Part shown: piece by piece, positions 1 through 8,856 of the stretch
Layout of the letters: each line of letters starts with the position of its first letter
Position numbering within the stretch: position 1 is the first letter of the stretch
Assembly: GCA_009937505.1 (NCBI GenBank)
Contig: JAACFJ010000011.1
Location: forward strand, 1 to 33,304
Reading direction: 5' to 3'
DNA: 33,304 bases
From: Gammaproteobacteria bacterium
GTDB lineage: Bacteria; Pseudomonadota; Gammaproteobacteria; Steroidobacterales; Woeseiaceae
Notes under the pieces: generated by a model
Seen by the model: the letters and a program-made list of their open reading frames with translations, nothing else
What the model was told of the DNA's origin: nothing
Databases searched by the model: none
Program-made: the position numbers and the translations under genes

Positions 1-142
1 CGCCAACCTCGGCAACCGCTTTCAGCGTGCTGATGAAGTCTTTCGGTTCCGGATAGCCCGCCGTCACGAACGGCACGAGCCCCGTGCGGCCCGCCTCGTT
101 TGCGGCACGAATCGCCGCTGTTACACGGTCATGCGCTTTCAT
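1..142 (-). CDS. trpA: Tryptophan synthase alpha chain, N-terminal part
   Basis: This is the alpha subunit of tryptophan synthase, which cleaves indole-3-glycerol phosphate and passes indole to TrpB. Only the first 47 codons are in the window; the gene runs off the left edge. The translation begins MKAHDRVTAAIRAANEAG and continues with LVPFVTAGYPEP, the first beta strand and loop of the TrpA barrel. The catalytic Glu49 region lies just outside the window. The ATG at 142 lies inside the end of trpB: the trpB stop (129-131) falls 14 nt downstream of the first base of trpA, so translation is probably coupled. The position as last gene of the trp operon supports the call. Confidence 0.9.
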   Translation of the reverse strand, partial: MKAHDRVTAAIRAANEAGRTGLVPFVTAGYPEPKDFISTLKAVAEVG

Positions 143-1338
143 GGCTGCGTGCCCTCACCGGGTATTTCGTCAATGTCGGCATGTCCTTGTCACCCCGGCC
201 GGAGTTGCCGATCAACAGTCGCTTGCCCGGATTCTCCTTCGCCCACTCGCGTGCCGCAACGTACGCATGCGCGGTTTCGAGCGCCGTAAGAATGCCTTCC
301 GTCTCGCACAGTTCCTCGAGCGCCGCGAGCGCCTCGTCGTCGCCTGCCGCCACGTACTTGACGCGCCCGGTCGCCTGCAGCATGGCATGCTCCGGCCCCA
401 CGCCCGAGTAGTCGAGACCCGCCGAGACCGAGTGCGTCTCCTGCACCTGGCCGTCGTCGTCCTGCAGGATCATCGTGTAGCTGCCCTGCAGCACGCCCGG
501 CGTGCCGGTCGCGAGCGTCGCGGCGTTCTGGCCGAGGCCGCTGCCCGTGCCGCCCGCCTCGACCCCGATCAGTTCCGTGTCGTCGCCGAGCATCGGGTAG
601 AACAGGCCGATCGCGTTGGAGCCGCCACCCACACAGGCGAACGCCACGTCCGGCAGGCCGCCGGCCTGCTGGATCATTTGCTCACGTGACTCGCGGCCGA
701 TCACCGACTGCAATTCACGCACAAGGTAAGGGTACGGATGTGCGCCCACCGCGGAACCCAACAGGTAATAAATGCCCGCGGGATCGGTGACCCACTTTCT
801 GAGAGCTTCGTCGATCGCGGCACGCAAGGTCTTGTCGCCCGACTCGACCGCGATCACTTCGGCCCCGAGCCGGCGCATGCGATCGACGTTCGGTGCCTGC
901 CGTTCGATGTCGACGGCGCCCATGTAAACGGCGCAGGGCAACGGCGCCGGTCTCCGCGATGACGCGCTCGACGCCCAGCCGTTTGGCAAGCAGCGCCTGC
1001 CCGATCGCGTTGTTGATTTTGTGTGCGCCCGTATGCGCGAGGTCTTCCCGCTTGAGCCACACGTCGGCGCCCCAGCGTTCACTGAGCCGCCCGGCGTAGG
1101 TCAGCGCGGTGGGCCGGCCGACCCATTCACGCAACTCGCGCTGGAACTCCGCCTGGAACTTCGGATCGTGCAGATGCTCCTTGACCCCGGCCTCGAGCCG
1201 CTCGAACGCGGGCACCAGCGTCTCCGGAACGTATCGCCCGCCGAAGGGCCCGAAGCGCCCGCGCTCGTCGGGCAGCTCGCCGTTGATCGCGGCCTGCAGG
1301 AGCGTTTCCGCTTCGCCCGCCTTTAATAAGGAAGTCAT
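129..1338 (-). pseudogene. trpB: Tryptophan synthase beta chain, frameshifted by an internal deletion
   Basis: TrpB is the PLP enzyme that joins indole and serine. The N-terminal part (1338 to about 943) reads normally through [13 protein letters not shown], the PLP-lysine motif [10 protein letters not shown] and AETGA. The C-terminal part resumes in another frame at about 935 with [18 protein letters not shown] and runs to the normal end, including the phosphate loop GGGSNA and SGRGDKD. Between A of AETGA and C of PCAVYMG, E. coli TrpB has 17 residues (51 nt), but only 7 nt are present (936-942). About 44 nt are therefore missing, which removes the GQHG loop that binds the substrate carboxylate and breaks the frame. 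It is either a true inactivating deletion or an assembly/sequencing error; everything else about the gene looks intact. The start ATG overlaps the trpF stop as ATGA. Confidence 0.88.
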
Positions 1339-1934
1339 GCCTGTTTCTCCACGGCGCGTGCCGCCTTGATGAAAAGTCTGATGAGACCCGGGTCCTTGCG
1401 TCCGGGGCGCGATTCGACGCCGCTCGAGACGTCGACGCCGTGCGGATGGACGGTCCGGATCGCCGTTGCAATATTGTCGATGCCAAGCCCGCCGGCGAGG
1501 ATCATGCGGCCCCGCTTTGCGATCTCCGCAGCCCGCTGCCAGTCGACGGCCTGCCCGGCACCGCTGCGTATGCCCTCGTACAGGAAGACGGCAGGCAGGC
1601 CCGATTCGATGACCGCCTGGCCCTCGCGGATGACCGGCCAGCGTTCCACCGAGTCCGGCACATCGAGCGACTCGAAATCGTCGATATCCGTCTGCAAGAC
1701 ATCAGGCGCAAAGGTTTCGAGTACGTCCTGCCACTCGCTCTGCGTCGGGTGGCGCATGACGGCGACGCGCCGCACGCGCTTCGGCAGGTACTGAGTCAGT
1801 TTGAGGGCTTCGCTCGGCGATACCCGCCGCACGGATTCCGCGAACACGAAACCGACGGCATCGGCGCCCGCGCTCACGGCCGCCTTTACGTCATCCGCCT
1901 TGCGCAGGCCGCAGATTTTCACCAGCAGGCTCAC
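1335..1934 (-). CDS. trpF: Phosphoribosylanthranilate isomerase
   Basis: TrpF isomerises phosphoribosylanthranilate to CdRP, the third step of tryptophan synthesis. The protein is 199 residues, normal for a stand-alone TrpF. It opens with [17 protein letters not shown], carrying the catalytic Cys of the KICG motif, followed by [18 protein letters not shown]. An Asp in the LQTDIDDFE stretch and the C-terminal [10 protein letters not shown] and [10 protein letters not shown] phosphate-binding loops are present. The reading frame is open further upstream, but the GTG at 1934 is the likely start: it overlaps the trpC stop as GTGA and places the first residues where the family begins. Unlike in enteric bacteria, trpF is not fused to trpC. 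Confidence 0.93.
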
Positions 1935-2737
1935 GCCGCCACCCTCGCGCCGCCCGCGGCGCGCATGTCCCTGACCAGGCCCGCGGGATCGTCGCTTCGC
2001 ATCAGCGCACTGCCGACCAATGCCAGGCTGTAGCCCCAGCCTGCGACGACAGCCGCGTCGCCGGCCGTCTTCAGACCGCTCTCCGCAACGCATCGCGCGT
2101 TCGGTAACAGTGGCGCCAATCGCTCGAGGCGCTTGCCGTCGACTTCCAGCGTACGCAGGTTGCGGCTGTTCACGCCGGCGAGCAACGTGCCGGCAGCCGC
2201 GCGATCATTATCGGCCGGGTTTTCGAGCAACGCGTTGCTGCGCTCCAGGTCGTTTTCGTCGAAGGCTTCGAGCAATACGAACATGCCGAGTTCGAAAACC
2301 GTATCGAGCATCGCGCGCAATTTATCGTCGGAGAGCATTGCCGTAATCAACAATACGCCGCTGGCCCCGGCCTTGCGCGCCTCGAGCACCTGCACGGGCT
2401 CGACGAGGAAATCCTTGCGCATGACGGGGGTGTCCGGCACGGCAGCGACCACTTCTTCGAGATGTTCGAGCGCCCCGTCGAAACGGCTCGGCTCCGTCAG
2501 CACGGAGATCGCCGCCGCGCCGCCGCGAGCGTAATCCCGGGCCTGCCCGACGCGATCGAGGTCCGCGCCGGCCAGCTCGCCTTCCGCGGGCGACCGGCCC
2601 TTGATCTCCGCGATGATGTCGAAGCCATCGAGCTGCAGGGAAACAACCGGTTTGTCGAGATCGCTCGCGCGGATATTCTTCACGGCGCTCGCGCGTTCCG
2701 CCGAGAGTTTCGCCATTTGCTGCAGGAAGTCGCTCAT
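1931..2737 (-). CDS. trpC: Indole-3-glycerol phosphate synthase
   Basis: TrpC closes the indole ring of CdRP to give indole-3-glycerol phosphate. The 268-residue length is typical of the monofunctional enzyme. Visible family motifs in order are FDIIAEIKGRSPAEGEL (catalytic Glu and Lys), GGAAAISVLTEPSRFDG, the MRKDFLVEP lysine loop, LLEAFDEND, AGVNSRNL and VAESGLKT. The usual KxxSPS loop reads KGRSPAEG, a mild variant. The ATG overlaps the trpD stop as ATGA and the stop overlaps the trpF GTG, so the gene is locked inside the translationally coupled trp operon. Confidence 0.95.
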   Translation of the reverse strand: MSDFLQQMAKLSAERASAVKNIRASDLDKPVVSLQLDGFDIIAEIKGRSPAEGELAGADLDRVGQARDYARGGAAAISVLTEPSRFDGALEHLEEVVAAVPDTPVMRKDFLVEPVQVLEARKAGASGVLLITAMLSDDKLRAMLDTVFELGMFVLLEAFDENDLERSNALLENPADNDRAAAGTLLAGVNSRNLRTLEVDGKRLERLAPLLPNARCVAESGLKTAGDAAVVAGWGYSLALVGSALMRSDDPAGLVRDMRAAGGARVAA

Positions 2738-3773
2738 CGGCTTTCGAAGTGTGCCCGCAGTCGGCTGAGCAGGTCCGCCGCATCGCCGGCGTCGATTGCG
2801 GCATTCGCGAGCTCGACGCCGTGCATCGCGTCACCGGCCGTTCCCTGTACCTCGAGCACCAGCGACGTGCTCATCACGAGCGCATCGCGGTGCGGGCCCG
2901 TGTCTTCGCCGGCAAATACGCGCTTCAGTTCGCTCGCATTGTGCGCAGCATCGCCGCCGGCGAGATCCTCAGGCGCACAACGAGCGAGCCCGTATTCTTC
3001 GGGCGTGCGTGTCGTGCGTGTGGCCTTGCCGTCACGCACGTCGAACAGCACGAACTCGCCGACAGGCGTCGCCTCATCCCAGCCCGGCTCGCCGTGCACG
3101 ACGAACGCCCGTTCGATATCCAGGCCTGCCAGTGCATCGGCCATGAGCTCGGCCGCCTCCAGGCTCCAGGCACCGATCAGCTGCGTCGGCGGCGTCGCCG
3201 GGTTGGTTAGCGGCCCGAGCATGTTGAAGACCGTGCGTACGCCCATCGCGCCGCGAACCGGCACGACGGCCCTCATCGCCGGGTGATACGCAGGCGCAAA
3301 CAGGAACGTGAAGTTGGTTGCCTCGAGGCAGGCGACCGCCTCCAGCGCGTGCAGCGGCAGCGGCATGCCGAGGCATTCGAGCATGTCCGCGCTGCCCGAT
3401 TTCGAGGATACCGAGCGGTTGCCGTGCTTCACGACGCGCACCCCGCAGGCCGCGGCCAGCAAACCCGCGCCCGTCGACAGGTTGAAGCTGCCGGAGCTGT
3501 CGCCGCCGGTGCCGACCGTGTCGACCGTCGGCGTGCCGTCCGGTATCTCCGGATGCACCGCAAGCTCACGCATCGCCCGCGCGAAACCACGCACCTCGCC
3601 CGCCGTTTCGCCCTTCGCTCGCAGGCCAGCGAGAAACGCACCGGCGAGTGCGGGGTCGAGTTCGCCCGCCGCGAAACGCTTCATGAGTTCGTAAGCCTCA
3701 TTCTCGGCAAGCGCCTCGCCGTTCAGCAGGCGGTCGAGGAGCGGGCTCAGGTTCGCTTTCGTATCGGCAGCGT

Positions 3774-3777
<4 letters not shown>
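2734..3777 (-). CDS. trpD: Anthranilate phosphoribosyltransferase
   Basis: TrpD transfers the phosphoribosyl group of PRPP to anthranilate. The protein is 347 residues, the usual length. The PRPP-binding glycine-rich loop appears as [18 protein letters not shown] near residue 85, followed by [19 protein letters not shown], the anthranilate/PRPP segment. The conserved [10 protein letters not shown] follows in the C-terminal domain. The loop residues after GTGGD (SSGSFNLST rather than the common GxxTFNIST) are slightly unusual but keep the key Gly, Asp and Ser/Thr positions. The start overlaps the trpG stop (ATGA, 3774-3777), and the gene is separate from trpG, in contrast to the E. coli fusion. 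Confidence 0.95.
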
Positions 3778-4369
<592 letters not shown>

Positions 4370-4370
<1 letters not shown>

Positions 4371-5755
4371 CACAAGCCCTCCCCGGCCATCTCGAGTGCA
4401 CGGCGCAGGATCGCGCTCTTCGCGAGCACCTCCTGGTACTCGCGTGCCGGCACCGAGTCGGCAACGATACCCGCGCCGGCCTGGAAACTGTACTCGTCAC
4501 CGGAAAACACCAGCGTGCGGATTGTGATCGCCTGGTCCATTTCGCCGCTGGCACCGAAATAGCCTGCCGTGCCGGCGTAGAGGCCGCGCCCGACCGACTC
4601 CATCTCCTCGATAATCTCCATGGCGCGCACCTTGGGTGCGCCGACCAGCGTGCCCGCGGGGAAGCTCGCCGCGAACAGGTCGAACTGGTCGAAGCGCTCG
4701 TCGAGTTCGCCCTGCACGCCGCTCACGATGTGCATGACGTGGCTGTAGCGCTCGATCGCCCGGTAGGGATCGACGTGCACGGTACCTGCACGCGCCACCC
4801 GGCCGAGATCGTTGCGCGCGAGGTCGACGAGCATCACGTGCTCGGCGGCTTCTTTCGGGTCGGCCAGCAGGGCCTTCTCGTTGGCCAGGTCCTCCGCCGT
4901 CGTCGCGCCTCGCGGCAGGGTACCCGCGATTGGCCGCAGCGATGCGCGACTGCCGTGCAGGCGGACCAGCGCCTCCGGCGACGAACCGACCACCGCGAGA
5001 TCGTCGAACTGGAAATAGAACATGTACGGCGACGGGTTGAGGAGGCGCATCGCGCGGTAAACCTCGAACGGCTGCACGTTCGTGCGGCCGCGGAACAGTA
5101 CCGACAGCACGATCTGGTAGATGTCGCCGGCCGCGATGTACTCCTTGCAGGCGTTCACCCGGTCTGTGTACTCCGCCTCGCTCAGGCTCGCCGTGGCCGG
5201 TGATATCTGCACGTCGGTCCTGGCCGCCGGGACCGGCCCGCGCAGGCGGTCGATGACCTCGCGGCGCAGCGCCTGGCGTTCCGCATCCGGCCCGTCGTGC
5301 AGCAGCGCGACGCGGCGCGTCAGGTGATCGAAGACGAGAAACGAGGTCGGCGCCGAGAAAGCGGCATCGGGAACGCTCGATTGCGGCTCGGTGTCGCGTG
5401 GCAATCGCTCGAACAGGCGCACGACGTCGTAACCCGACACGCCAACCAGTCCGCCGGAGAACGGCAGACCTTCGACCTCGGGTTGCGGGCGCGGCGCCCG
5501 TGCGAGTGCGTCACGCAGTGCGCCAAGGTATTCGTCGCGCGTCGCCGGTCGCGGCCGGCTTTCACCGTCGACACTGAGCCCGTTCGCGTCCATGCGCACT
5601 TCGAGCGCGTCGCCGAAGCCCAGGAACGAATAGCGCGCGAGCCGCTCACCGCCCTCGACACTCTCCAACAGGAAGCGGGGCCGCAGCGGTGCGAGCTTCA
5701 GAAACGCCGATACCGGTGTATCGAGGTCGGCGGCTATGTCGAATGGTTCCTGCAT
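4370..5755 (-). CDS. trpE: Anthranilate synthase component I
   Basis: TrpE makes anthranilate from chorismate, the first committed step of tryptophan synthesis. At 461 residues it is shorter than E. coli TrpE (520). The N-terminal [19 protein letters not shown] contains the LLES motif where tryptophan binds for feedback inhibition, which argues for TrpE rather than PabB. The chorismate-binding half shows [61 protein letters not shown] and [12 protein letters not shown]. The ATG at 5755 sits 10 nt behind the U-tract of the attenuator. The only ribosome-binding sequence is a weak GGA just after that tract, so termination and initiation signals abut. Confidence 0.95.
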
Positions 5756-5764
5756 GGTTCATCC

Positions 5765-5799
5765 AAAAAAAAACCCATCTCCACTCTGGCGGAGACGGG
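5765..5799 (-). terminator. trp attenuator (intrinsic terminator)
   Basis: On the minus strand the sequence reads a 9-bp stem CCCGTCTCC / GGAGATGGG (arms 5791-5799 and 5774-5782, one G-T wobble) with an 8-nt loop, followed at once by nine T residues (5773-5765). It lies between the Trp-rich leader peptide and trpE, so it is the classical attenuator that stops transcription when tryptophyl-tRNA is plentiful. Confidence 0.95.
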
Positions 5800-5859
5800 C
5801 TTCTGGTTTTGCTTTGCTCAGCTAATAGTCGGCCAGCTACCCCCTCCTAGGCGGGCAGC
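5791..5859 (-). promoter_or_regulatory. trp leader RNA 1:2 hairpin and antiterminator segments
   Basis: Two alternative pairings can be drawn. Segment 1 (GCTGCCC, 5859-5853, inside the Leu-Pro codons of the leader peptide) pairs with GGGTAGC (5842-5836), 7 pairs including one wobble, forming the pause/anti-antiterminator hairpin. Segment 2 (GGAGGGGG, 5847-5840, starting at the last base of the leader stop codon) can instead pair with the terminator's 5' arm (5799-5791), 7 of 8 positions with one wobble and one mismatch. A ribosome stalled on the Trp codons would disrupt 1:2 and favour 2:3. The pairing was done by eye, with no energy calculation. Confidence 0.7.
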
Positions 5860-5891
5860 CACCACCAGACATTGCTGTGCCGAGCGTTCAT
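5847..5891 (-). CDS. trpL: trp operon leader peptide, 14 residues
   Basis: A 14-codon reading frame, MNARHSNVWWWLPA followed by TAG, lies between a strong promoter and the attenuator. Three consecutive Trp codons (TGG at 5867-5859) are the tryptophan sensor of ribosome-mediated attenuation. No Shine-Dalgarno sequence precedes the ATG, and only 8 nt separate it from the promoter -10 hexamer. The mRNA therefore probably starts at or within a few bases of the AUG, and the peptide would be translated from a leaderless transcript. Sinorhizobium meliloti trpL is a known leaderless example, also with 14 codons and three adjacent Trp codons. Confidence 0.92.
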   Translation of the reverse strand: MNARHSNVWWWLPA

Positions 5892-5899
5892 AGCCCGGA

Positions 5900-5928
5900 G
5901 TATTACTGTCCCGTCGCCCTGCCGTCAA
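5900..5928 (-). promoter_or_regulatory. Sigma70-type promoter of the trp operon
   Basis: On the minus strand a near-consensus -35 TTGACG (5928-5923) is separated by exactly 17 nt from a -10 TAATAC (5905-5900). The expected transcription start falls at about 5894-5891, overlapping the trpL start codon. The promoter sits in the short gap between the SLC13 gene stop (5952) and trpL. No TrpR-like palindrome was seen, so attenuation may be the main control. Confidence 0.85.
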
Positions 5929-5951
5929 GAACAAGGAGCCACAGCGTCGTT

Positions 5952-7790
5952 TTACAGGGAATAAAGCACCGGCAGCAGCAGCGAGAAGCCGATCCACATG
6001 ATGATCGTCAGCGGGATGCCCACGCGCAGGAAGTCCGTGAACTTGTAGCCACCTGCACTCAGAATCAACAGGTTGGTCTGGTAGCCGTAAGGCGTCGCAA
6101 AACTCATGTTGGCGCCAAACAGGGTCGCCAGGATGAAGGGATCCGCCGGCACGCCGAGCTGCTGTGCGATGCCGATGGCGATAGGCGTGCCGATCGCGGC
6201 CGCCGCGTTATTGGAAACGATGTTAGTCAGCAGCGCCATCAGCAACATGAAGGCGCTGAGGATCATCCCCGGCGGCAGCGCCGAGGTCATGCTGACGAAA
6301 CCCATGGCGATGTAGTCCGCCATTCCGGTCCCCAGCAGCGCCTTGCCGAGCGCGAGGCTCGCGACGATGATCATGATAACGGGAATCGACAGGGCGCCTG
6401 CCGCATCGCGCCAGCTAAGGCAGCCCGTCGCGAGCATGAAGCCGAGTCCGACCAGGGCGCTGGCCGCAATGGGCAGGATGCCCAGTGCCGCTGCCGCGAC
6501 GACCAGGGCCATGATCGTCAGCGCGCGCTTGGCGTGGTGCGTCTGTGGCAGGTCGGTCGTGCCGTCCAGCACCAGCATCGAGCCGCTGTCCTTCAGGTGG
6601 TTGATCGCTTCCCCCGAGCCCTGCACAAGCAGCACGTCGCCCGCGCGCAGCCGGATCGTGTTCAGGTCGCCGGTAATCTGTGAACTCGGCGCACGCGCCC
6701 GGTGCAGTGCGAGCGGCATGAGCCCGTAGCTTCCCGAGAACCGCGCCGCGGCAAGCGTGCGCAGATGCAGGGGCGAGCCGCGCGTGACCACGACTTCAGC
6801 GAGTTGCTGCCCGCCGGCCTTGAGCGGAAACTCGTCGTCAACCGGGTGTTCCTCGTCCTCGGCGTTGTAAAGCGTTGCGCCGAGGATCTGCTCGTAGTGC
6901 TTGAGGTTCTCCGGCGAGTCCTTGACGAACAGGCGATCGCCCGGCTGCAGTTTCACCTGCGGCAGCTTCGCGAGGAACAGGGACTCGCTGCGCTGGATCT
7001 TGTCGACCCGCATCTGACCGTCAGCTTTCGCAAGCACCTCGGACAAGGTGCTGCCGTCGGCGAATCCGCCCTTCCTGATGTGCAGCTGCCCGCTGAAGAT
7101 ACGTGGCGTCGTATCCGCCATGAGCGGCGTGCGGTCCGGCAGCAGGCGTGGCGCGACGAGCCACAGGAACAGGATTGCCACGCCGCCGATAATCGAAACC
7201 GGCAGCACCCATTCGAACAGCGAGAACGTGTGCTGACCCATGTCCTGCGCGATACCGACGACCAGCAAGTTTGTCGATGTGCCAATGGTCGTCGACATAC
7301 CACCAATGATTGTCGCCAGACCCATCGGCATCATCACTTCCGATACCGGGAACTTGCTGCGGATCGAAGCGCCGACGAGTATCGGCATCAGCAGTACGAC
7401 GATGGGCGTATTGTTCATGAAGGCGCTGAGGATCGCGCCGGCGACCAGCGTGGCGAGCAGCGCGAGCACCGGGCTTTTCGACCACGCTCTACCGACGATA
7501 GTCGCGAGCGGCTGCAGCGCGCCCGTCGTTTCGAGGGCCTTGCCCACCATCATCAGTGCGCAAATGGCGACCAGCGCCTCGCTGCCGAAGCCCGCGAAGA
7601 AATCGATGGACCTGATAGCTACCTCGCCATCGCGCTTATAGGGGAACAGCTCGAACCCGGCGACGAGTATGACCAGGATCGTCAGTGACGATGACTCGAG
7701 CGGAATGCGGTCACGCGTGAAAAGGAACAACGCGAGTACGGTCAGGATCAGTACCGCCACTCCGTGAGCGTCAAGTGATATCGGCTGCAA
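5952..7790 (-). CDS. SLC13/DASS-type transporter with two RCK_C (TrkA-C) domains
   Basis: This is an inner-membrane transporter of the divalent-anion/Na+ symporter (SLC13, CitT/ArsB-like) fold, 612 residues. Hydrophobic helices fill residues 5-235 and 430-612. The two halves carry the re-entrant-loop motifs MNNTPIVVLLMP and IVSNNAAAAIGTP. Between them lies a soluble stretch with two RCK_C-like modules (MRVDKIQRSESLFLAKLPQV and the later HLRTLAAARFSG part), typical of the large bacterial subfamily. The substrate cannot be told from sequence; sulfate and dicarboxylates are family possibilities. An ATG at 7889 would overlap the upstream gene. The TTG at 7790 is preferred because GAGGGG sits 5 nt upstream and because the protein then begins, as the family does, just before helix 1. 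Confidence 0.85.
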   Translation of the reverse strand: MQPISLDAHGVAVLILTVLALFLFTRDRIPLESSSLTILVILVAGFELFPYKRDGEVAIRSIDFFAGFGSEALVAICALMMVGKALETTGALQPLATIVGRAWSKSPVLALLATLVAGAILSAFMNNTPIVVLLMPILVGASIRSKFPVSEVMMPMGLATIIGGMSTTIGTSTNLLVVGIAQDMGQHTFSLFEWVLPVSIIGGVAILFLWLVAPRLLPDRTPLMADTTPRIFSGQLHIRKGGFADGSTLSEVLAKADGQMRVDKIQRSESLFLAKLPQVKLQPGDRLFVKDSPENLKHYEQILGATLYNAEDEEHPVDDEFPLKAGGQQLAEVVVTRGSPLHLRTLAAARFSGSYGLMPLALHRARAPSSQITGDLNTIRLRAGDVLLVQGSGEAINHLKDSGSMLVLDGTTDLPQTHHAKRALTIMALVVAAAALGILPIAASALVGLGFMLATGCLSWRDAAGALSIPVIMIIVASLALGKALLGTGMADYIAMGFVSMTSALPPGMILSAFMLLMALLTNIVSNNAAAAIGTPIAIGIAQQLGVPADPFILATLFGANMSFATPYGYQTNLLILSAGGYKFTDFLRVGIPLTIIMWIGFSLLLPVLYSL

Positions 7791-7819
7791 TCCGTCCCCT
7801 CGATTACGCAATCGCAAAG

Positions 7820-7837
7820 CGCGCTCCGACGAGCGCG
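7820..7837. other. Short GC-rich hairpin between two genes
   Basis: A perfect 7-bp inverted repeat, CGCGCTC / GAGCGCG, with a 4-nt loop lies in the 67-nt gap between the 332-residue unknown gene and the transporter start. On the minus strand only TTT follows, so it is a poor intrinsic terminator. It could be a processing or stability element in a shared transcript. Confidence 0.4.
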
Positions 7838-7857
7838 GTCCGAAACCGTATCGTAGA

Positions 7858-8856
7858 TCATACGTGCTCCGCAAACTGCGAAGTTGCAATTCTCTGCTTT
7901 AGAACGGCCCGCGCACGCTGATGAAAGTGTTTGAATTGATTGAAATTCCAGTGCCTGATGGACACATTCCGGTTAAATGCACAGGCATCCGCATGGCGCA
8001 GCAACGGCAGCAATTCCGCGTAATCGTAGTCGGCGCGGGCGTCAGTAGGGAACAGGCTCCACGGCGAGATCACCAAAAGGTTCCTGTGGCGCACCAGCGT
8101 CGCCCGTACAGCCGCGCGCCAGCGACGACGCCAGTCTTCGCGAATACTGCCACGCGGCAGAGTATGACTCGGATCGCTCAGGGCGATCGCGGGGAGCGGC
8201 TCCGAGCGCATCGCGATCGCCCGCGATTGCGACTGCGCGCTCATGCGCAACCAGAGGAGCAGCTGGTTGAGGTAACGCAGGCTGTCGTGCTCTGACGGCG
8301 GCATCTCCCTCAGGCGCAGCAGGTCGCCAAATCCGGAGAGGACGATCGCGAGCCGCCGGTTCAGCCACGCGTCATGCTGCACGTCGGCCGTCGGCCAGGC
8401 GAGCGAGCCGTGCAGGGCCTCGCCCACACTGACGCAGGTCTCTACGCACTGCTTCAGCGCCTGTTCGTCGAGCGCACCGCCCGGATTCGTGAAGCGCACG
8501 AGGTTGACGTCCATGCAGACCCACGCGGAATCCGCAGGCGCCTGTAGACCGATCGGCGACACGATCGCACGCCCCTGCTCGGCGGACAGCAGCGGGCACT
8601 GCGGCACAATGCGATCCGCGAAGGCCGTTCGAACGCAGGGCTCCGTCCGCAGGTCCCAGAGGGTGCCCCAGAGCTGGTCGCATCGGTCGCTTTCGCCGAC
8701 AAGCACGTAGTGGCTTGCGGGTGGCGCATCGGTAAGCAGCGGTTCCGCACCCGAGAGCCGCAGTCGCCGGCACAGCCCGGCTGACTGCGAAGCGTCGGCA
8801 AACTGCGTCTCACAGCCGACAAACGACAGCTCCGCTGCTGCGGCAGTTGCTTCCAT
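7858..8856 (-). CDS. Hypothetical protein, 332 residues, no recognised family
   Basis: I do not recognise this protein. It has no signal peptide and no membrane helix, and looks like a soluble cytoplasmic protein with mixed alpha/beta character. Notable stretches are YVLVGESDRCDQLWGTLWDL, RIVPQCPLLSAEQGRAIVSP, a Trp/Arg-rich REDWRRRWRAAVRATLVRHR followed by NLLVISPWSLFP, and a basic C-terminal tail with NVSIRHWNFNQFKHFHQRAR. An ATG at 8949 would give 31 extra low-complexity residues; the ATG at 8856 has AGGGA about 8 nt upstream and begins the ordered region, so it is chosen. It precedes the SLC13 transporter on the same strand and could share its transcript. The coding statistics look genuine, with a GC-rich third position like that of its neighbours. 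Confidence 0.7.
   Translation of the reverse strand: MEATAAAAELSFVGCETQFADASQSAGLCRRLRLSGAEPLLTDAPPASHYVLVGESDRCDQLWGTLWDLRTEPCVRTAFADRIVPQCPLLSAEQGRAIVSPIGLQAPADSAWVCMDVNLVRFTNPGGALDEQALKQCVETCVSVGEALHGSLAWPTADVQHDAWLNRRLAIVLSGFGDLLRLREMPPSEHDSLRYLNQLLLWLRMSAQSQSRAIAMRSEPLPAIALSDPSHTLPRGSIREDWRRRWRAAVRATLVRHRNLLVISPWSLFPTDARADYDYAELLPLLRHADACAFNRNVSIRHWNFNQFKHFHQRARAVLKQRIATSQFAEHV

Follow-up and report, generated by a model that had tools for sequence, protein, structure and literature searches.

The trp cluster and the region upstream of trpE

The window, that is, the whole 33,304-nt stretch of DNA from a Woeseiaceae bacterium analysed in this study (the whole of contig JAACFJ010000011.1), carries on its minus strand a single trp gene cluster in the order trpE-G-D-C-F-B, which lies downstream of an attenuator and reaches the contig end. 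The genes of the region, with the protein models that identify them, are as follows:

5952-7889, minus strand, DASS-type transporter gene (TIGR00785, below cut-off)
4370..5755, minus strand, trpE, the first gene controlled (best match TIGR00564, 487.1 bits, below the 517.7 cut-off)
3774..4373, minus strand, trpG (TIGR00566, above cut-off)
2734..3777, minus strand, trpD (TIGR01245, above cut-off)
1931..2737, minus strand, trpC (IGPS models, all under cut-off)
1335..2093, minus strand, trpF, ORF as listed (PRAI models, all under cut-off)
129..1338, minus strand, trpB, two overlapping ORFs whose frames differ (each matching TIGR00263 below cut-off)

The true trpF start is probably further in than that of the listed ORF. 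The two trpB ORFs each match a different part of the trpB model, and the split reading frame may reflect either an assembly error or a real break. No trpA was seen on the contig up to its end after trpB. The trpE genes in Woeseiaceae records of the same genus are 82-95% identical to that of the window, and among 299 genomes of the phylum, searched for a closer trpE beyond the order, no genome other than the window's own matched at E <= 1e-118.

The leader region between the transporter gene and trpE comprises the following features:

5923..5928, minus strand, -35 box TTGACG (TTGAC invariant in the 30-row alignment A1)
5899..5904, minus strand, -10 box AATACT (conserved hexamer NATACT)
5847..5891, minus strand, trpL leader ORF including stop, encoding MNARHSNVWWWLPA, whose start codon lies no more than a few nt from the inferred start of transcription
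5853..5859, minus strand, strand 1, GCUGCCC, pairing with 5836-5842 in helix 1:2
5836..5842, minus strand, 3' arm of the 1:2 hairpin, GGGUAGC, pairing with strand 1
5839..5847, minus strand, strand 2, GGAGGGGGU, the antiterminator when paired with strand 3
5791..5800, minus strand, strand 3, GCCCGUCUCC, common to antiterminator and terminator
5772..5782, minus strand, strand 4, GGAGAUGGGUU, 3' arm of the terminator
5804-5769, minus strand, terminator stem, a strong hairpin followed by nine T
5765..5773, minus strand, nine-T run, the expected 3' end of the attenuated RNA

The first-pass annotation of this DNA had proposed a trp attenuator here, and its parts do lie on the minus strand as placed, with a short ORF containing Trp codons directly upstream of the trp genes. 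This ORF, trpL, has 14 codons, with Trp at codons 9-11. Reading upstream from the ATG at 5891, the leader frame meets a TGA inside the -35 box before any other start codon, so trpL should begin at 5891. The -10 box had been given as TAATAC, 17 nt after the -35 box and 8 nt before the ATG. This hexamer is present, but comparison with relatives, some of which show GATACT or CATACT at this place, puts the conserved hexamer one base downstream, at AATACT, with a spacer of 18 to the -35 box and 7 nt to the ATG. Across the 30 aligned rows, two positions of ATACT are invariant and three are at least 90% conserved.

A scan of positions 5700-6050 returned one promoter-like site (shuffle mean 0.1) and two terminator-like sites (shuffle mean 0.4), one of which is the trpL terminator. 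In addition, folding of the 137-nt leader gave a z of -4.55 against 200 shuffles. The window's attenuator matched none of the Rfam leader families at gathering score, and a permissive scan gave three sub-threshold matches, including Thr_leader at 14.4 bits of 55. Short repeats of the form (G)TAGGAGCG...CGCGA, similar to REP-type elements, are present between the trpL terminator and trpE in four loci (L002, L006, L013 and L027).

A fixed promoter-to-start distance across the order

The order was sampled as 110 regions upstream of trpE, consisting of the 30 first loci and 80 loci picked manually for coverage of genera and families. Sixteen families of the order appear in the genome set, and the 110 regions sample 14 of them; the family of the window is Woeseiaceae (f1; NCBI order Woeseiales). 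The genus alignment (A3) holds 29 of the 30 first loci, L030 being omitted because it is from another family. As a control from other orders of the class, 60 regions were fetched out of 112 genomes with a trpE match, one of them (L261) shortened by a contig end. The promoter was scored without regard to ORFs, and the next ATG was then accepted if it opened a short Trp-rich ORF.

The gap between the -10 box and the ATG was found to be 6 or 7 nt in all 29 genus loci, 6-9 nt in all 18 further loci of the family, and 6-10 nt in 54 of the 63 loci from other families of the order. None of the 60 loci from other orders had a gap of 6-10 nt; five combined a promoter with a Trp ORF, at 4, 5, 40, 47 and 55 nt. 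When GTG starts, single-Trp leaders and gaps of 4-12 nt were allowed, 106 of the 110 order loci passed, representing 13 of the 14 sampled families, all with gaps of 6-10 nt (102 ATG and 4 GTG starts), and two of the 60 loci from other orders did so, with poor promoters that both have a TTGGC -35 box, at 4, 5 and 8 nt. The order loci failing this relaxed test were L057, L075, L105 and L106, the last two belonging to family f12, whose trpE match reaches only 47-48% identity. Among the control regions from other orders of the class, 28 promoter-like sites scored at least 9, none of them followed by an ATG at 6-10 nt. The distance between -10 box and ATG, whose comparison among relatives had been proposed as a check, is thus kept at 6-10 nt.

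The pattern TTGAC-N17-20-ATACT-N5-8-ATG occurs once in the genome of the window's bacterium (3.09 Mb, 88% complete), at trpL, and 13 congeneric genomes contain 23 matches, 11 of them at trpL, compared with 4 for the pattern written backwards. A looser pattern scan of genome contigs gave at least 118 stretches; 15 of the 118 listed hold a trpE of the window type at E <= 1e-20, and the remaining stretches are taken as chance. In Povalibacter uvarum DSM 26723 (Steroidobacteraceae in NCBI; L214), the leader MYTRMTTMSHRWWWRLS follows TAATACT-CAGCCC. The GTG-start leaders, which include all three loci of family f16 (L102, L103 and L104) as well as L093 of family f15, begin 6-7 nt past the -10 box. 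They are unusual as leaderless leaders, since leaderless mRNAs are thought to favour AUG. A pyrimidine (C or T) stands directly before the start codon in 28 of the 29 genus leaders, 15 of the 18 from the rest of the family and 38 of the 54 from other families. Initiators prefer pyrimidine-purine, and a C or T at this position is in keeping with a +1 at the A of AUG.

The trpL mRNA is probably leaderless in the window's bacterium, as the first-pass annotation had suggested: the gap of a few nt between the -10 box and the start codon is kept in relatives, and the 20 nt upstream of the window's ATG contain no 4-base Shine-Dalgarno-like run. No convincing ribosome-binding site before trpL, named there as an observation that would speak against a leaderless start, was found in the relatives either. 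Four-base Shine-Dalgarno-like runs within 20 nt of the leader ATG are present in 4 of 30 loci (L004, L011, L012 and L014); three of these runs overlap the -10 box, and that of L011 lies 1 nt from the ATG. Anti-Shine-Dalgarno energies of -5 or lower were obtained for 6 of 29 leaders of the genus, 4 of 18 of the family and 8 of 54 others, compared with 13 of 30 trpE starts, which is a modest contrast. For that reason, more weight is put on the promoter-start spacing. For the families with a gap of 9-10 nt, a 5' UTR of 1-3 nt and a complete lack of one are equally likely.

The transporter gene needs to be considered as a second source of trpL transcripts. Its stop codon lies 23 nt upstream of the -35 box, and the one terminator-like site in its vicinity is weak, so longer mRNAs may also carry trpL. 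It could be argued from this close ORF end (5952) that the -35 and -10 boxes are not the sole promoter and that trpL has an ordinary 5' UTR, being mainly translated from a longer mRNA begun in or before the transporter gene, and some Trp-rich leaders of other orders do seem, by eye, to lie near an upstream gene without such a promoter. We consider this very unlikely for the window. TTGAC is invariant and ATACT strongly conserved over the 30 rows, the window's ATG is preceded by no Shine-Dalgarno-like run, and the promoter-start distance is held in 13 of the 14 sampled families, for which a leadered mRNA would offer no reason.

Leader variation, competing helices and the predicted ribosome switch

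A short Trp-rich ORF (WW or W-x-W) precedes trpE in all 30 first loci and, with only ATG starts counted, in 73 of the other 80. Across these trpL leaders the peptide varies and the Trp block is kept. The leader has 20 aa in 21 of the 29 genus loci, and its final codons supply the strand-2 bases, often reading E-G/R-A-A-G-stop. Leaders of 14 codons are found in the window and its near relatives L002 and L041, where the stop lies 6 codons upstream, and L026 also has 14 aa. Of the first three, the two that were aligned (L001 and L002) now have CGA in place of the former in-frame stop and keep strand 2. That the stop moved upstream yet strand 2 stayed suggests that the leader tail is conserved as RNA rather than as peptide.

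In other orders, some short Trp-rich ORF was found in 23 of 60 upstream regions with looser starts allowed, many of them of the WRW type. Several WRW-type leaders (L230, L252, L264, L279 and L284) lie, by eye, close after an upstream gene without such a promoter, and may be read from upstream transcripts. Among 101 order loci already selected for two Trp close together, 84 carried the terminator motif, 83 a loose strand-2 motif and 74 the two together, and the terminator motif was found in 0 of 60 loci from other orders. With the motifs so widespread in the order and the terminator motif lacking in the control loci, the attenuator looks inherited within the order. In L019 (1360-1489) the terminator stem is kept and the T run is broken, so termination may be weak in that species.

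The competing helices are conserved over the 29 genus leaders. For helices 1:2 and 3:4 together, 94.2% of the alignment cells are paired, and 7 pairs show changes in both partners. For helix 2:3 the figure is 96.0%, and 3 pairs show such changes, the first pair changing from G-C to A-U in 7 rows. Slid helices used as controls were 40-59% paired. In none of 500 shuffles was the paired percentage or the covariation score as high as in the real alignment, a control that is inflated by the relatedness of the leaders; the pair types of helix 2:3 were equalled by 104 of the 500.

To model the switch, nascent RNA was folded to the end of strand 3 with the ribosome footprint masked, the front edge of the ribosome being assumed to lie 11 nt past the codon. 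For the window without a ribosome, P(1:2) was 0.97 and P(2:3) 0.03; with a ribosome stalled at any of the three Trp codons P(2:3) was 0.98, and at the stop codon it was 0. Over the 29 leaders, P(2:3) exceeded 0.5 in 29, 27 and 28 at the three stall positions and in 0 at the stop codon. Without a ribosome, 9 of the 29 still favoured 2:3, and the median P(1:2) was 0.38. In the folding model, the region has the mutually exclusive antiterminator and terminator helices, together with the U run, of a ribosome-mediated trp attenuator.

A test of synonymous against non-synonymous changes was made on the 28 leaders of exactly 20 aa. For codons 2-8 the observed value was 0.311 and the expected value 0.189, and for codons 12-20 they were 0.292 and 0.279. 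In the shifted frames, the observed and expected values were 0.176 and 0.270 (+1) and 0.356 and 0.202 (+2). As one shifted frame scores no lower than the true frame, the test is not counted as evidence for translation.

The lack of a clear coding signal in this test would suit an account in which the promoter and terminator are genuine, the Trp ORF accompanies them by chance, and a protein, TrpR or another factor, controls termination, and Trp_repressor family proteins occur in 20 of the 20 congeneric genomes searched. Such a protein (PF01371) is encoded at G000:C65:26232-26480 in the window's genome and is also found in 19 congeneric genomes. PF01371 matches in Bacillus subtilis as well, so a match is not always TrpR. 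Protein control of this kind is hardly credible at trpL. A Trp-rich ORF is present in 30 of 30 and, counting ATG starts alone, in 73 of 80 order loci against 23 of 60 in other orders even with looser starts, the Trp block stays where the rest of the peptide varies, and the competing strands sit where a stalling ribosome requires them. Moreover, the trpL promoter shows no conspicuous palindrome resembling a TrpR operator; the best matches equal those of one shuffled set, and CTAG occurs in 7 of 47.

Very probably, the locus is a trp attenuator of the ribosome-mediated type, with transcription from its promoter starting on the trpL AUG or no more than a few bases away and with leaderless translation of the peptide. 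For the start of transcription, stalling and termination in the cell, we infer the following sequence of events. Transcription would begin at the trpL AUG or a few bases from it, so that trpL would be translated as a leaderless mRNA. With charged tRNA-Trp plentiful, the ribosome would clear the three Trp codons, reach the stop codon and cover strand 2, upon which the 3:4 terminator would form and an RNA of about 127 nt would be released. With charged tRNA-Trp scarce, the ribosome would stall on codons 9-11 and cover strand 1, strands 2 and 3 would pair, no terminator would form, and trpEGDCFB would be transcribed. Without any ribosome, 1:2 pairing would leave the terminator on in the window.

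Comparison with known leader peptides

The attenuator logic is of the ordinary, textbook kind. A leaderless trpL is itself of a known kind and here probably characterises most of an order. It is this spread of the probable leaderless start that lifts the finding above a one-genome curiosity. The first-pass annotation had regarded a leaderless trpL as notable in a gammaproteobacterium. The arrangement itself stands, but it is less notable than supposed, since leaderless genes have already been predicted in Gammaproteobacteria: a computational survey reports them in 15 of 239 gammaproteobacterial genomes, mostly from Xanthomonadales and Legionellales (PMC3160421). No paper describing a leaderless trpL in Gammaproteobacteria was found among the matches listed, which offered titles and abstract openings and included few subscription papers. 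Vitreschak and colleagues reportedly surveyed proteobacterial attenuators in 2004.

The fixed spacing in 13 of the 14 sampled families suggests that the leaderless start of the trp attenuator is old and selected, and not a rhizobial oddity. The order offers many natural variants, including the GTG-start leaders, for studies of transcription-translation coupling without a ribosome-binding site, and also a gammaproteobacterial system for asking whether attenuator RNAs or leader peptides act in trans. Selection across the order might hold the trp start on the trpL start codon, leaderless initiation being part of the device. Either the RNA of about 127 nt would be a free, translatable leaderless mRNA, with the RNA, the peptide or both acting in trans as in Sinorhizobium, or the attenuator would also sense how plentiful 70S ribosomes and initiation factors are, linking tryptophan synthesis to stress. 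We put this forward as a tentative and rather unlikely extension.

In Escherichia coli, trpL is preceded by a 5' UTR containing a ribosome-binding site, its promoter includes a TrpR operator, and its attenuator forms 1:2, 2:3 and 3:4 helices, with the Trp codons before strand 2 and a 14-codon peptide. The attenuator of the window follows identical logic and the same strand plan, and its peptide also has 14 codons. Unlike that of E. coli, the window's trpL is apparently without a UTR and without a recognisable operator.

Leader peptides transcribed without a 5' UTR are described for leuL, thrL and metL of Streptomyces lividans (PMC8079986) and for the ilvB leader of Corynebacterium diphtheriae (PMC5784534), and leaderless genes are said to be common in actinobacterial lineages (PMC3160421). 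These leaders belong to another phylum and to other genes, and what they share with the window is the probable lack of a 5' UTR there.

In Sinorhizobium meliloti the Trp codons of trpL are adjacent, and trpE(G) is a fused gene. A paper on that system states that the RNA starts at the trpL ATG, that the peptide has 14 aa and that attenuation gives a small RNA; that the rnTrpL RNA and the peTrpL peptide act in trans; and that trpDC is a second operon, regulated in trans by rnTrpL (PMC7298713). It also prints adjacent trpL Trp codons for two relatives of S. meliloti (PMC7298713). The first-pass annotation had drawn a parallel to this system, which holds for the probably leaderless trpL and fails for trpDC. 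The comparison is imperfect because trpDC lies there in a second operon, whereas trpE-G-D-C-F-B are consecutive in one cluster of the window; a separate trpDC operon as a target in trans is absent here, trpD and trpC being placed beside trpE in its own cluster. In its leader, the window resembles S. meliloti, with a -10 box a few nt before the trpL start codon, no ribosome-binding site and a 14-codon peptide.
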